Source: Melieria omissa (taxonomy: Eukaryota > Arthropoda > Insecta > Diptera > Ulidiidae). Taken from it: a stretch of 64,000 nucleotides of DNA. The stretch is taken from contig OZ020269.1 in NCBI GenBank assembly GCA_963971225.1, positions 37,407,264 through 37,471,263 of the forward strand. Reading direction: 5' to 3'. How positions within the stretch are numbered: position 1 is the first letter of the stretch; the number at the start of each line of letters is the position of its first letter. The notes beneath the pieces are model-generated. The model was not told the DNA's origin, ran no database searches, and saw only the letters and a list, made by a program, of their open reading frames with translations. The translations under genes and the position numbers were made by a program. Of this stretch, positions 3,777-57,079 are shown one piece after another.

Positions 3777-4748
3777 AAATTGAACATGTGAGACTTATTT
3801 CTTTAAGAAGGATGGTTTAAAACAAACAAAAAAATTGGTGGTCATTGAGTTTATGTTTTTTCAGTGATAAACAACCTTTCATTCGGACTGGTCGATATTG
3901 AAAAAAAAATCTATGAAATGATGTAAGAAGTTAAAGTTAAAGAAAATCAGCACAAGGACGTATGGATCTGCATGTAAAACATAAAATTAGTATTTTCCGA
4001 GAACCGGAGATCAACAGTTGATTCCCTAACCGACTTAACCATCACTTAGAAAAGCAATTGCACCTTAATATATAACCCCTTGCAATGTGTTGGCCTGTGC
4101 ACTAAAAGGAACATTGTTTTCGCAACGGCTACTATGTATATAAAGCTACTACTCGAGTTTCATCGATACCTATCATCCCAATTTATTTCGAATGAGCTTC
4201 CGATGGATCTTACCATTTTCACTGCAAGGATCGATTTCTATATCCGGGATTTACCAGAGCAGGCAGTGTATTAATTGTGGCATCTTCATTTGCTAGTCGC
4301 GAGATAGACCTATGCCACAGATAACTCATCATATAGATGTCCAGTCTCATACGACGAAAACGGCACACAAATTTCAAGCTCTGAATTACAGCTTTTTTCC
4401 GCAAAGCTATTTTACGCACACAACTGCATGTGCTCATCCAGAACTTTTGTCGGATTGAATTAATTTTGAATTTCTTTTCTGTGATATTCTTTTTTGCAAC
4501 ATATATTTATGATTTTAGCTTCAACGATCACGTACTGTATTTGGTGTAACAGGTAGACAGCACATCATTTATCCGTAATTTCTTTTTCGTAAATTTCGCC
4601 TCGGGTTCAAGGCTGGGCGAGAAGCAAAATTTTTCTTAACATTTAACGCTTTTTTTTATAAACCTTTTTAATCGGTTATACCGGAAATTAATAATGTGTT
4701 CAAAAAATGTGATATAAATGAATCGGCACTAAACATTTTGTGCATGAT
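3777..4748. other. Unassigned DNA with a shared repeat scrap
   Basis: No gene recognised. The stretch at about 4307-4352 (CACAGATAACTCATCATATA and on to GATGTCCAG) is shared with about 9645-9690 and, inverted, with about 9140-9165, so part of this region is repeat-derived. The rest is AT-rich. Confidence 0.4.
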
Positions 4749-4901
4749 CAAAGAATATAAAGAAAGAAAATAATTTTCTTTGGCATGATACATACACATC
4801 GTTGCTAAGGCAACGCATTGTCAATAGCTGCGGCGCCAGCAGGTCTATCCTCTGCGTCGGCGTAACTGTATTGCGACAATGAAGTGACCGCTGAACAATT
4901 A

Positions 4902-6224
4902 GGGTCAGATGGGGGAAATGTAAACAAGGGGTAAATGTAAACAGCGGTTATTTTATACTTTTAAAATTAAATGCAACAGACCATGACCCAAAAATATATT
5001 AATTTAACATGTCCTTAAACTGTCGCCGAACTTTCACGTCGGTGGCTTTCAAATATCAATGAAAGTTTTAGTCTTAAAGAGAACGTATGTTCTAAAAGTG
5101 AAAATCACTTTTGTAAGTATTTTTTAATTTGTGTGTGAAAGTGCTTAAACTAAAAATTCTTGTAATATTGTAACTTTGTTTATCAATCTTAGAGTGTAAG
5201 GAAATAAAATTGTTGCTGTCTTTCCCTAAATTTGTAATTGTTTTGTTGTTTTTTTCGTGTTTACATTTCCCCCAATAATTTTTAGCATGTGGGGTAAATG
5301 TAACCACTTTTTTGGGGTAAATGTTTTTGGGGTAAACGTTTTTTTCTGAGAGCCTTCCCGGTTCGTATCATTTCAAGTGATCAGAATGCCACGAACGTAT
5401 GTAAGGAAGAAGCCACTTGTAGAGTACGACGTAAAAAATGTAGAAAACGCTGATAATGATACTATTAGTAAGGAAAAAATCCAATTCCTAGACTTAAGCC
5501 AATGAAGTATAGTGAAGTTTTGACTTCTAACAAAGTTCTTAAGCGACTGAAGGAAAAAAGTCAAAAAGATAGCAAACAAAATCTCTAAGCCCAAGAGAAA
5601 GTCTGTTTTATAAGCTAAAAACCGCTTCCATAGAAAACACGAACCAAAAGCACGAGTACAAAGGACTCTGCAAATGGAAAATACGTTGTCTATAAAGATG
5701 GTAGTGCATGAGAACTTTGCAGTTGATGATGTAGATGAGAAGGAGGAGCTGGAATCCGTGGATCCAGCTAGGCTTACAAAAGGTAAATTTCTGTTTAAGG
5801 GAGATAGCAGATTAACTATACTTTTCAAATACGTATGCGTTATACAATCCTACCAACAAAATGACGATATTGACAAAATCTCCTCAAAAGTGTGGGCACC
5901 TTGAAGAAACCTTGAAGAATACCTACCTAGATACCGAAGTTCCGAGTGTCTTAAGGGAGCGAAAGCACTGTTTCCTTTTACCCCTGAATTTTAAAAATAA
6001 TTTGGGAAATGTAAACAACACCGGGATAAATGTAAACACCACTCTTTTGCGCTTCGTTGGTTTTAAAGAGCGAGTTACTGATCACCAGTGCAATACCTGA
6101 TGTTTTTTAAAAATAATGTTAATTTTTGAAAGTAGAAAAGGTGTCCTAAAAAGTATTTTTTCAGTTTTTTCAAAGTACTTGCGCAAAAAAAGCAAAAAGT
6201 GTTTACATTTCCCCCATCTGACCC
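4902..6224 (+). mobile_element. pogo-like TA-flanked DNA transposon
   Basis: A perfect inverted terminal repeat of about 24 bp begins GGGTCAGATGGGGGAAATGT and is flanked by TA on both sides (4900-4901, 6225-6226). The motif GGGGTAAATGTAAAC and variants recur as subterminal repeats near 4930, 5260-5340 and 6000-6035. The paralogous fold-back arm at 12041-12042 holds the uninterrupted site with a single TA. Remnants of a coding region lie inside. Confidence 0.8.
5386..5790 (+). pseudogene. Possible pogo-type transposase remnant
   Basis: The frame from the ATG at 5386 opens MPRTYVRKKPLVEYD, resembling the short basic start that precedes the helix-turn-helix of many pogo/Tigger-like proteins. 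It stops after about 40 codons. Further short acidic frames follow (for example from 5674, rich in D and E), which could be the acidic C-terminal tail seen in such proteins. No catalytic DDE block is visible, so most of the gene is missing. The assignment leans on the element ends as much as on the protein. Confidence 0.35.
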
Positions 6225-50974: not shown

Positions 50975-52730
50975 CTCAGATATTAACCTGGACGCCAGAA
51001 TTAAGCCAAAACTGAAAATGTGTTTAAGTGTTTATTTCATACTTAATCAAAATTGGTACTAAAATCTCCTACAAAACTTGATTTTTGAGGGTTAGTGTGT
51101 ATGGGAAAAATGTTGAGTGCAAAATTTCAATATAAGTCACCGTACAAAAGAAAGCTCCTTCGAGCCGGAGGACCACAAAAATGAACACAGAAATAATTAT
51201 TTGTTTATTGAACGTTTAAACTTACAAATGTATTTAAGGCAGACAATGACAATGAACACAAAAATGACTATTTCTTTATGAGTTGCACGCTTTTCCTGCT
51301 CTCCTTCTTCGCTGCGAAAATGATGATAACAACATGGCCGCTGCTCTCTACGGGATGCTGAGGTAGTTTATGCAGCGTTGCATTGAGTTGTAGCACTAAG
51401 CAAATAAACACATAGAGGTGTCAACTGGCACAAATTTGCGTACCAGCGCAGTAGGTCCCATACGCACTTCGGCTATTCGAACATATTCGCGATGACTTCG
51501 GCAAACTTCTCAATTCGAAGTCAGCTTTCATAATTTGCTTTATGTTGATGTGGTCAGTCGCACATCAACTGTGCGCCAGAGACAATAAACACTTCGAGTT
51601 GTTCTCACTTATACAGACTCATTTCTTGCTGTCTAATAAATACCCGCTGTCACATAAATCCCCGAGCCAATAGATACATTTCGTGGTGTGTACATGAGTA
51701 CCCATGAGTACCCGAAAAATTGAATGTAGTATGTATCATAGAAGTCGTTTCTACATACGGCATTGCTTTACTGGTGCTGCCAAATAACCTTCCTACCATA
51801 CTTCATGGTGAACATAATTTGAATTCTTATCGTTTGTTTATTGTGCAGCAGACTACGCTGAGGACACCGAGGATTAAAAAAGAAAATAAATACCAATTTG
51901 ACTGTTAAATTAACGTTCGTATCTGTAGCATGTGATGAAATGTCGGGGTAGGTATATTTTTATTTATGATGCACTCCACGATATCGAACCCTTTGTTTGT
52001 TGCAGTAATTGCAACACGGACAAACTTCTTGCTTTATTTGTGCAAGTTAGAATTTATTTTGTTTTAAAGTTTTTTAATAAAAAACTCTATTCCCGAGTCG
52101 AAAGATAAGATTTTGCGTGTATCGCATTTGAAGTTTTTCAAATAATTTTTGTTGATAAAGGTAGAACTAACACTAACACTAATGTTTGTAATGCTACTAT
52201 CATCTTAAAAGACTATAAATTTTCAGTGCAGTTTTTCAGCAAATTCATTCAAAAAACTTGACGGAATTTTTGTATACTGTAAATCGCGTAAAACCGCTCA
52301 GGGTTAATATGTATATATTGCTTGTGTATATATGTTTTGCATGCTACTTCTTTAATTTATAAGTTCGCATTGTATTATATGTGACATGTATGTAATATGG
52401 CACATGTAAATATTTTGGTGCTGGTATTAAACAAATGTATTTATTGTACTTATATGCACTTCTCATATGTACTTATGTATATATAATTGTTAAGTTGTTG
52501 CACTTATATGCTTTTTGCTTTTTTTACATTTTTTGTGTGCACATTTTGTATCTTTAGTTTTCATTTTATTGTTTTAAAAATATGAATTTCTGATTTCTGT
52601 TTATTGGAGATATATTTTTTTTTGCACATTTTGTTAATTTAATTTTTTTTATTAATTTTTTTATTTTCTGTTTATTGGTGCAATCTACATGTGACTTATA
52701 TGTTCCTTATATTTTATGAAATGTTGTAAT

Positions 52731-52813
52731 GGGTGAAATATGCCTACAGGGGCACCAAAAAAAAAATATTCGGTAATGCGCCTATTTTGCATACCTCTAT
52801 GGTGGTGCGGAAA
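52731..52813 (+). repeat. 80 bp repeat, also at 54318-54400
   Basis: GGGTGAAATATGCCTACAGG to GGTGGTGCGG is repeated at 54318-54400 in the same orientation. One copy is outside and one inside the nested element 53342-56265. Nature unknown. Confidence 0.6.
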
Positions 52814-53845
52814 TGTAAAGATATTTATAAAGATATATCTATTACGTGTAATAAATTTTTATTATAAATGAATCAAGCATATTGTCATGTACATTAGTTA
52901 CTTGCAATAAGAGGAATCTTAAAATATTTGTGGTTTGGGTTGTAAGAATTTGCAAAACAAAAAATTACAATATATCAAAACTTAGCACAATACTTCTCAA
53001 TTTTTTGTTTTTCGAAATTACCCCGGGCGGCATCAGGTTGACGATGAAATATCAAATCCAACAGCTGATATTTTTTCACCACAACTTTTACCAATTGGCA
53101 GCACAAAATTTCTATGCAAAAGGGAGGCAGAATAATGCACAAATATAACAATATGAACGAACCACAACAATTTGGATTGCTGGCAAACTTTTTGACATCA
53201 CATTTAGATTACAGAATGAACACATATTCTTGTTCCGGCAGCGATTTTACTGTAAATCATAATTTTGTGCACAAACATCCATCCCCGAAAAAGTTTCAAG
53301 CAGAAAACAGCTGATTGGGTTTCACCACGAATTGTAAACGCCAAAGTAAATCCTAAGTAGCGCCACTCTTTGACAACCAGGCGTCGATTCTGTATGACAA
53401 GAACTGTCAAATTGTTGTTGTTCACGTGTAAAACTGAGCTCACCACGATGGCCGTACACTAGTGGCAGGATTGCGTGTACGTGAAAAATACTGAAAAAAT
53501 TGCAGTTAATATGAATTTCTTAAACGTAATTTAAGACGATTTTATAAAGGAATCGTTTACTTTTTATGTTGGTATAACCAGAGAAAAGAAAGCTAAATAA
53601 AATTCTCATAAATTATTTGGTTTTTACCAAAATTTATGAACAAATTTAAATTATTTCGTTTTTTATTCAAGAGCAACTCTGCCTTTCTTATATATATTCA
53701 CCACAAGTCAATGTTAGTTGGTAATGAAATTCAAATGGTATTCTTGTTTGAATTTCCAAAGGCGAAACGCAATTTTTGTAAGTATGGGCAATTTTTACGT
53801 TTTTATAAAGAAATTTTCATGTATTTTTATATTTTTTCCAGCATC

Positions 53846-53916
53846 ATGGCTAGAAAGTGTGTTTGCGGCTGCAAGGGAGCTGAAAGTGTTCATCGATTTC
53901 CGCGGGAGGCCACGCT
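53846..53916 (+). pseudogene. THAP-domain first exon of a P-type transposase
   Basis: A splice acceptor-like TTTTTTCCAG precedes CATC and the ATG at 53846. The exon encodes MARKCVCGCKGAESVHRFPR then EAT and ends CT/GTAAGT, a strong donor. 'C..C......HRFP' is the start of a THAP zinc finger. The remaining THAP and catalytic exons are not found downstream, so the transposase is truncated. Confidence 0.6.
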
Positions 53917-54578
53917 GTAAGTAATTTGTTTGTAGTTTAAAATGTTTTTTAAATTAATTTAGCCCAACGCCGGAGGCTGTTTTGTTGTGTTTTTAAATCC
54001 GTAGTGCCAAACGGTTTGCTATGTCGCGAGTTCTTAGTACTACCAGTGCTATAAACAAATATATTTCTATTCCTATTGTGCTAGAATTGTGAGCAAGGCA
54101 ACGTCTTAACGTATTTCGACGATTATAACTTTCTCAGGGCAATTTCAAAACACAAAAACATTTATTTTTTCCTTTCCCCACCACTTTGTTGCCTAGATTT
54201 GTATATGCTTAGGTGGATAAGTTAACTTAACTGTATATATCTTTTTTATATAATATATAAATTATATATATATTTATTTAGTATAAAAAAAATTTAAGTA
54301 TAAAAAAAATTGTAAGGGTGAAAATATGCCTACAGGGGAACCGAGCACCCAAAAAACATCGGTAACGCGCCATTTTGCATACCCCTTGGGTGGTGTGGAA
54401 AAAGCAAACACATTTTCAGATCTAGATGCTGCTAGCAGTAGGATGCCGCCTGCCGATAGTTGTTATGGTTGTTGATTCGATGTCTGCTTTTGCGTTTGGC
54501 TGAATTAGAAAAAGGGTTTAATAAAATGTAATACGACTTATGTGTGTATTGATGCTGTTCAATTGAACCAACCAAACA

Positions 54579-54903
54579 TCAAACTTTCGATTGCGTTTCA
54601 ATAGGGTGACACCGGTGCACCATAATGATCCTGTGCTGGCCGGCCGCCAGTGTACATGCCATGCCACATGCCATTGACGACGTGGACGATGAAATGTAGT
54701 CGCTAGTACTGCGTTTGCTGTAGTCATCGGTGCTTCGCTTTGCCGGCGCTGTAGTGTAATCATCAATAGCTGGCCGCTTGGAGCTGCTGCTTGTGTTATC
54801 GCCGCGCTTGGAATTGTCCAGGCGTTTCGTGGCCGTTGTGTAGCCGTCAATGCCACGCTTGCTGGAAGTTGAGCTGCCATAATCGTCACGCTTCTTATCG
54901 TAA
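54579..54903 (-). CDS. Captured host-like exon C (terminal)
   Basis: Acceptor TTTTATTCCGCAG, then minus-strand coding SYDKKRDDYGSSTSSKRG, KRPAIDDYTTAPAKRSTDDY and SKRSTSDYISS: a Lys/Arg/Ser/Tyr/Asp-rich repeat region like those of nuclear RNA-binding proteins. The frame runs to a stop at 54579. In the next frame the end would read GGRPAQDHYGAPVSPY and stop, which looks more natural, so a 1-base shift near 54665 may have altered the C-terminus. The gene is not recognised. Confidence 0.55.
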
Positions 54904-55001
54904 CTGCGGAATAAAATCAACACGCAAATAAATTAATAGAATGTTTTCAGAATATTTTTTTTCGGCCTAGGGAGAACAAGAGAATATAATGTAAAACGTA
55001 C

Positions 55002-55160
55002 CTTCTGGATGACACTAGACTTGCATCAAAATGTGGCGGTGGTGCCTCGAAACGACTGTCAGTGCCTGCTGGTCGCTTGCGATCTGCCACATCCACATAG
55101 CGTTCATCGCTGGGGCGTTTCGCCAAACGCTTAAGTGGATCTTCCCGTGCTTGTATAATC
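55002..55160 (-). CDS. Captured host-like exon B
   Basis: Minus-strand exon of 159 bp: IIQAREDPLKRLAKRPSDER, then YVDVADRKRPAGTDSRFEAP and PPHFDASLVSSR, with donor AGAAG/GTACGT. The acceptor is less clear (TTGAAG before GATTATAC). Its phase joins exon C exactly (Ser codon split AG/T). The conserved-looking, hydrophilic sequence suggests a nuclear protein; no name is offered. Confidence 0.55.
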
Positions 55161-55255
55161 CTTCAATTGGTCAACGACAAGACAGAGATCCAGGCAAAGT
55201 GGTGGGGAAAGAAAAAGCGACGTATTAGATATGTCTTCATTTAATTCAGACTTAC

Positions 55256-55383
55256 ATTACAATTCGCACATTGCATTTCGATGGAGCAAACCGAGGAATA
55301 TGCTCCTGCTCCTGGATATAATGGCTACCCGGCGAATTGCATTTCCGCGACTTGCTTCTGCAACTCGAGCGCAATATGGCTAC
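55256..55383 (-). CDS. Captured host-like exon A
   Basis: Minus-strand exon of 128 bp with a strong acceptor TTTTCTCTTTTAG and donor GTAAGT. In the frame that joins exon B (two leftover bases AT plus G) it is open: SHYIQEQEHIPRFAPSKCNV then RIV. A second frame gives IALELQKQVAEMQFAG then a stop, so the first is the one kept by splicing. Upstream exons would lie to the right but none was found inside the element. Confidence 0.5.
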
Positions 55384-57079
55384 CTAAAAGAGAAAATACA
55401 ATTTAAAAAAGTACGATTGATAGATACTCACCAGGTTTCACTTCTGCACTTTATTATATTTAATTATATTCATTTTTAATGTGTTTCGTTGCGATATTTT
55501 GTTCCTTTTGAACAATGTTATCAAAAATGACATTTCATTTCTGCATTGGAGGTGAAATTTGCACATATTGTGGTGAAAGTGGTCAAATTATTATAAGACA
55601 GGGTTGAAATTTTTGTTATCGATGGTGAATATAGAAATGTATTAAGATGGGAAATGTTTGTAATGATTATGATTTCATTAAAATTATTTCATTCAGTTCA
55701 GTCGCATCAAAGAAATTTAATAATGAATACGAAAATGTTCTTCTGAACACATTCATCATCTTTTGATTAAATTATCGTGTTGTGAGTTTATATTACCAAT
55801 CAAAATGAATAAAAACATATTTTTAGTACGTATTAAGAGCTCTGAAGATGCACGACATTACTATAACACACAAATTTTGAAATAATTTATTGCAAGAAAC
55901 TTTGTCGTTCGCATTTTACCTTATACAATAACAAAATTACCTTGATATTGATTCAGATTGTTTTATGTTTTTATCATGAAATTATTTTTAGGAAAGAAAA
56001 ATTGAAATTTTTATTCAAATGTTGTCTATTTTAATCAATTGTGGTAATAACTATTGTATTTCTCCAGTAATTTTACAGTTTTGTTAAGATATTTAATCTT
56101 TCAAATATTTCTTTATTTCTTGATTGGAAAGAGCAGTCAGAAAATTAGGCATAAAATTTACTCCCAAAACCAACAGAAAATCGTTATGGGGTAGCACTGC
56201 TTGTGCGGCAACACTGCCACTAGTGTACGGCCAAAAAAGAGTGGCGCTACTTAGGATTTACTTTGGTAAACGCATTGCAGAATTGAAACTTGTATGAAAA
56301 ATAGCCAATAAGCAATGCAAAATTATAGCAAACTTGAATGAGCTGTAAGCAATTTTATGATCGCGTTTTTCTTAGATATGAATAATTTATTGATTAATAT
56401 ACAGTAAGATGCTTCCGATTGCTGTTTTATTGGAAAACTAATTATCATTTTTCCGGCAGCAAAATAAGTCTGCGAGCTGCTCCGGACAATAGATAAATAG
56501 AAAAACCAGCTGAGCACCAATTCACCATGAATTGAATGCAACATAAAAAGGAAATTTTTATGGCAGAAGGCGAAAGTTTTACGTCAAATAACAGACAATC
56601 GACGCATTCTAAGACATTGTAAGGCACGCGATCCACATATATGTACTATCTGAGATGTTCAGAGTGAAAAACATTTATACCGGCAATCCTTTTCATATAA
56701 AACCAAATGCTTTCAATTTTTTCCCCGGCAACCAAATTGCAAACAGCTGATTTCTTTGATCTCACGGAGTTTTTATCTTGGTTATCTAGATAATCACACG
56801 TATAGGAAATTTCAGCTGTTTTTGGCAAAATGAGCGAGTGTAATGTCTTATTTGTCTCTGTGTGCGCTGTGGTGATGTTGCTGTTATGCGCCTTGCTTTC
56901 AGCGCAGCAGGTCCCATACGCACTTCGGCTAGCCGAAAATATTCGCAAAATTGTGTGCGTTGCCTTCACACGCAATGAAATAATCAACCACCAAAAAAGC
57001 CAACAAAAGCAACAACACAATTTCACTTGTTCGCGCTTATTTTTGTGTATACCTTTTTTTCGTTGACGATCGCTTTCGC

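Follow-up and report, generated by a model that had tools for sequence, protein, structure and literature searches.

Capture and movement of coding DNA by non-autonomous DNA transposons is described for the Pack-MULE and Pack-TYPE elements of plants, as set out in PMC8903248. For animals, a survey of 100 animals (PMC8277862) reports 370 Pack-TIRs, in which terminal inverted repeats (TIRs) enclose host sequence and for which distinct duplications are the sign of amplification; 323 of the 370 belong to hAT or TcMariner, four are multicopy, and none comes from a bird or insect reference genome. The same paper describes Ssk-FB4, a fly gene taken up by the TIR transposon FB4, considered MULE-like, and spread in Drosophila populations, and it cites P-element gene capture from experiments that followed artificial activation of transposase in Drosophila. 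Turmoil-1 of C. elegans (PMC2572040) is a further instance of transduplication in an animal, with a different element and with cargo lying within inverted repeats. Among the open-access papers listed, as judged by title and opening of the abstract, none described an insect gene captured naturally by a P-type element; gene capture by transposons is familiar in plants and barely so in insects. Here we describe such a case in a 64,000-nucleotide stretch of DNA from the fly Melieria omissa (hereafter the window), where a mobile unit of 2,924 bp and of P-superfamily type (53342-56265) is almost certainly a P-type element that has taken up host DNA.

The account that we favour, at a probability of roughly 0.85, is that this unit is an internally deleted P element, that its right arm holds a fragment of a host gene, by its relatives a scaffold attachment factor B (SAFB) gene, and that it behaves as a Pack-TYPE element. 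Several of the features by which Pack-TYPE elements and Pack-TIRs are recognised are seen for the SAFB cargo: host sequence lies between the ends, the donor is in the genome, introns are retained and transposition has been repeated. The window copy lacks a transposase of its own, while transposase remnants stand in five SAFB-carrying copies elsewhere in the genome (L010, L012, L013, L043 and L045). The likeness to plant elements lies in coding DNA captured and moved by a non-autonomous DNA transposon, and the difference in the superfamily, the insect host and the presence of the cargo in transposase-remnant copies as well. Animal Pack-TIRs share the TIR ends around host sequence and the amplification evident from distinct duplications, whereas the present family belongs to the P superfamily and has two cargos in tens of copies each. 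Ssk-FB4 is likewise a fly gene spread by a TIR transposon, there FB4 and a single gene; the Drosophila P element shares the transposase family, and its experimental captures, unlike those described here, followed artificial activation.

P-superfamily elements have terminal and subterminal inverted repeats of about 31 bp, and the Drosophila P element is known for its 8-bp duplication, its ends of about 31 bp and its internally deleted copies, all of which recur here. In the window, the left TIR (53342-53371, plus strand) is the perfect 30-nt complement of the right TIR (56236-56265, minus strand), the pairing reaching 31 nt if the adjacent C/G outside the element is counted, and sibling copies end in the identical 30-mer. 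Inside these, the left subterminal repeat (53449-53474, plus strand) is 92% complementary to the 26-nt right one (56208-56233, minus strand), and the 8-bp target-site duplication GTAAACGC stands unaltered on both sides (53334-53341 and 56266-56273). An earlier sequence-only reading of this DNA had claimed identical inverted ends of about 30 bp, an inner subterminal pair and a perfect 8-bp duplication, and all three are borne out. It had also proposed a THAP first exon. A short open exon is indeed present on the plus strand (53846-53916, ATG at 53846, followed by GTAAGT at 53917) and translates as MARKCVCGCKGAESVHRFPREA.., the only transposase exon that the window copy retains; its THAP identity was judged by eye. 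A Pfam scan of its own open reading frame returned only WBP-1, below cut-off; the THAP reading is backed by the sibling copy L045, whose next exon matches the remaining THAP domain, itself below cut-off.

The transposase evidence comes largely from L045, which has two open transposase pieces with a single in-frame stop between them. In the first of these (3890-5587, minus strand), the GTP-binding insertion domain TNP-like_GBD (3e-21) and the RNase H domain TNP-like_RNaseH_N (1.5e-20) both score above the curated Pfam cut-offs, and the P-type HTH domain Tnp_P_element (7.4e-4, 20.3 of 23) and THAP (4.4e-3, 18.2 of 23.9) below them. The first piece has a sole match in the PDB search, the P transposase 6p5a (5.8e-13), and the second matches no Pfam family; a C-terminal transposase piece in L010 matches 6p5a at 0.0075 and Tnp_P_element_C at only 0.099. 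Taken with the 8-bp duplication and the terminal and subterminal repeats, the transposase domains of this sibling argue that the family is a P-superfamily DNA transposon. The left arm is family-wide (53342-54120, plus strand; 96-98% in L010-L015, which diverge from the window copy at 54120), and the right arm with its SAFB cargo (54122-56265, plus strand) recurs in L010, L013, L043 and L045, interrupted in L012 and only partial in L054 and L059. Since the left arm stops at 54120, the right arm resumes at 54122 and longer copies (L010 of 6.5 kb, L012 of 9.4 kb) hold extra sequence between these positions, the window copy reads as a non-autonomous internal-deletion derivative of the P family.

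We searched the 490-Mb assembly that contains the window for the two ends. The left query of 459 bp gave 572 candidate places and the right query of 666 bp gave 618; 40 of each were scored and all match, at 94-100% and 97-100%, respectively. Other genomic copies of the ends, whose absence the sequence-only reading had named as counting against it, are abundant. All 40 scored candidates (of 86) for the block 54400-55450 match at 92-100%, a few of them partially, which is more than chance would give. A perfect 8-bp duplication flanks 11 of the 21 copies with both ends, with sequences that differ from site to site, and such distinct duplications at distinct sites indicate that the cargo-bearing element has transposed repeatedly. 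A further 8 of the 21, of the same family, have a perfect 7-bp duplication instead; among them, L014 has an altered base at the end of the element.

The cargo was traced through its protein. The joined minus-strand exons match a Glossina protein (P0001) at 58% over 67% of the query, and a genome search with that protein, in which all 113 candidates were scored, gave two best loci of equal score on contig C1 (63708835-63710043 and 121403126-121404334). Both hold residues 1-57, 58-191 and 172-305 (1-305 of 308) as three exons, and every other genome match is partial. The donor gene, a search for which the sequence-only reading had proposed, is therefore present in this genome at sites apart from the element. 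The host locus runs from a coiled-coil exon ending LELKRQQMK through an intron, an exon RIMQAREDP..VSSR, an intron, an exon SYDKKRDD.. and an intron to a last exon ending in GRPGQDRYGAPVSRY and a stop. Pfam and PDB searches with the relatives P0001, P0005 and P0007 gave no named match. Because a coiled coil near-identical by eye to that of the donor occurs in a Bactrocera latifrons protein (P0035) labelled Scaffold attachment factor B2, we assign the donor, by this resemblance, to the host SAFB gene, predicted to encode a nuclear RNA-binding protein. The two host loci are oppositely oriented on the same contig, as in a recent duplication or an assembly artefact. The 115 matches of P0001 fall into 60 places, of which two are the host loci and about 58 remain, some perhaps being one copy split by insertions and one group being two copies. 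P ends were checked at 20 fetched SAFB loci (L018-L037, the window copy included), 18 of which have at least one terminal repeat within the fetched 4 kb.

Alignment to the donor sets the limits of the fragment. Window positions 54674-55253 are identical to the donor at 542 of 603 positions, intron included, and a second block on the minus strand (54503-54661) matches donor L065:1555-1399 at 151 of 159 positions and contains the SAFB C-terminus, the native stop TGA (54598-54600) and 3′ untranslated sequence; overall, donor and element are 90-95% identical. On the minus strand the captured parts comprise the 3′ end of donor intron 1 (55161-55253), exon 2 (55002-55160; 151 of 158 aligned bases identical), the following GT..AG intron (54904-55001, with indels relative to the donor) and the 5′ part of exon 3 (54674-54903, placed by donor alignment and sibling exons). 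Between the two blocks 635 bp of donor is absent, so that the window copy is missing the remainder of exon 3, intron 3 and most of exon 4; L050 and L051 retain slightly more of exon 3. As the intron itself matches the donor, the capture took place at the DNA level, and the earlier proposal that a P-type element had captured intron-bearing host DNA is supported. A processed, mRNA-derived copy acquired by chance, for which we found no supporting point, has next to no probability and was rejected because the element keeps intron 2 together with a portion of intron 1.

The proposed gene model of three minus-strand exons fares less evenly. Joined at their AG/GT signals, the exons do give a single open frame, 202 codons long, and two of them (55002-55160 and 54579-54903) match the host gene, as does the intron that separates them. 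The remaining exon (55256-55383, minus strand), open and flanked by AG/GT, does not: donor homology stops at the capture boundary 55253/55254, and since capture begins within donor intron 1, this stretch is not a SAFB exon. No SAFB relative examined matched it, and a resemblance to the Glossina residues NVRI was set aside as chance similarity. It lies in an exon-like stretch of 225 bp (55254-55478) that separates the SAFB boundary from the right core, and its diversity is the lowest among copies (0.0088 in 23 aligned rows); the stretch is possibly another captured piece. A second exon-like stretch (54400-54502, after TTCTAATTCAG) lies on the opposite side of the SAFB block and could join 55256-55383 across it.

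SAFB is probably not the only host gene involved. Nine right-end copies absent from the match list of the SAFB block (L054-L062) were fetched, and five of them (L055, L056, L058, L061 and L062) hold a different block with a minus-strand gene. Two others (L054 and L057) hold remnants of the SAFB-type right arm, and in L059 transposase sequence is joined to a right arm starting at 55452; a third cargo considered in L060 was rejected, the sequence there being by eye like a long-terminal-repeat retrotransposon. In the second block, two exons separated by an intron code for an alpha/beta hydrolase. Pfam alpha/beta hydrolase families score just below or below their curated cut-offs, and the sequence reads as ABHD12-like; its PDB matches, two distant bacterial hydrolase-fold chains, were not used. 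In a fuller copy (L063) the hydrolase reads to a stop and adjoins a P right arm of 90% identity, so that this cargo stands beside a P right arm in six copies. A genome search with the block gave 128 candidates, of which all 40 scored match (the query's own place included); in 35 the match exceeds half the length of the query. ABHD12-type and SAFB-type copies part at 55479, where the matches of L056, L058, L060 and L061 start, and 55479-56265 (plus strand) is a right-end core common to both. In a tree of the right arm, built from 30 of 33 copies after dropping those that aligned over less than 550 bp, L051 is deepest and the five ABHD12-type copies cluster, with weak support, with L059 and L060 within the SAFB-type diversity; the tree gives no firm order of captures. 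On this evidence the P family probably took up host genes on two occasions or more, and both cargos, carried between the same ends, were amplified.

As to the route, we consider template switching during gap repair somewhat more probable than all other routes together. Excision of a P element, or a break within one, would be repaired by copying host DNA via template switching; later deletions would trim cargo and transposase, and transposase from other copies would mobilise what remained, with duplications of 7-8 bp as a result. We favour it on indirect grounds: terminal repeats are lacking at the inner cargo junctions of the copies read, internal deletions are frequent among family copies, and L056 carries an excision-like scar inside its ABHD12 block (2511-2560), in which 12+6 bp of the P ends are left, flanked by copies of CTCGATAT, and which is absent from the other listed matches spanning the same place. 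The less favoured alternative, and an unlikely one, is composite transposition, in which P elements flanking the SAFB region, and separately the ABHD12 region, moved jointly and lost their inner ends by later deletion. Neighbouring P copies do exist (in L061 a right and a left end are 8 bp apart, and L057 holds a tandem partial copy), and internal deletion is common in the family; yet neither an inner terminal repeat nor an inner duplication remains at the cargo junctions of the copies read, and the parting of both types at 55479 would require the same deletion endpoint twice. This last objection is softened by the 225 bp adjoining 55479 in the SAFB type, which are not SAFB. Quite unlikely is arrival of the cargo within another mobile element, for instance a Helitron-like one, nested in the P element. 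In the right arms compared by alignment, a dispersed repeat piece (54310-54400, 81% to 52724-52813 and present also in the flank of L001) adjoins the SAFB block, but it lies about 100 bp beyond the end of donor homology (54503), and by eye no such repeat was recognised beside the ABHD12 cargo; Helitron ends were not searched for.

Several observations weigh against our account. No capture intermediate was seen among the copies, and none of the six listed copy middles holds an unbroken transposase. Two of the 21 both-ended copies (L016 and L044) lack a matching duplication, and L064 has the ABHD12-like block with no P arm within the 2.2 kb fetched. The putative host origin of that block would rest on its protein-coding look and its intron. 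Finally, the 225 bp from 55253 to 55479 and the segment 54122-54502 are without explanation, and therefore the SAFB capture may have been compound.

That the element or the host profits from expression of the captured gene, for instance through a truncated protein competing with SAFB or through silencing RNA, is very unlikely. The native C-terminal end (..GAPVSPY and stop) is kept in 16 of 22 distinct aligned copies, although one of these (L033) has an earlier stop; the frame is shifted by a common 10-bp deletion in four, the window copy and L019-L021, and L050 and L051 read another C-terminal frame. Divergence of the 22 copies from the donor amounts to 4.8% for intron 1, 5.0% for exon 2 and 5.3% for exon 3, and to 23% for the indel-rich and poorly aligned intron 2. 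Donor-to-copy pS is 0.115 and pN 0.032, a ratio of 0.28 that includes constraint in the donor lineage, which by itself lowers it. Among the copies there are 17 distinct synonymous and 28 non-synonymous changes (ratio 0.51), and the 0.115 variants per coding site are scarcely fewer than the 0.122 and 0.143 of the introns. Both ratios and the retained stops would suit a useful product; the non-synonymous excess in number, the near-intronic variability and the frame-shifted window type speak against one. Selection appears to be weak constraint at most, and the SAFB cargo most likely travels as a passenger.

Few cut-and-paste transposons of animals are as well understood as P elements, with their solved transposase and, in Drosophila, gap-repair genetics. 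A natural P family that has taken up and amplified one host gene or more, probably two, allows the mechanism of capture, a matter of debate for plant Pack-MULEs, to be tested in flies, and shows that insects too can shift exons by DNA transposons. The two cargos share an orientation antisense to the transposase, and each includes the 3′ end of a gene. It is possible, if doubtful, that the P family captures host genes repeatedly in the manner of Pack-MULEs, with a preferred cargo slot inside the right core (the types parting at 55479) and exchange of cargo there, that a transposase-coding lineage carries the cassette, and that the 225-bp piece is a third captured gene. More speculatively, the SAFB and ABHD12-like copies might feed small-RNA silencing of host genes.

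Two minor features of the family remain. Evenly spaced copies, resembling tandem arrays, occur at C4:18795650-18806056, C3:75531083-75542518, C1:81574339-81609996 and C4:71119853-71126936, and the long copies L045 and L012 contain nested open frames of other DNA transposons, mariner/Tc-like by eye.

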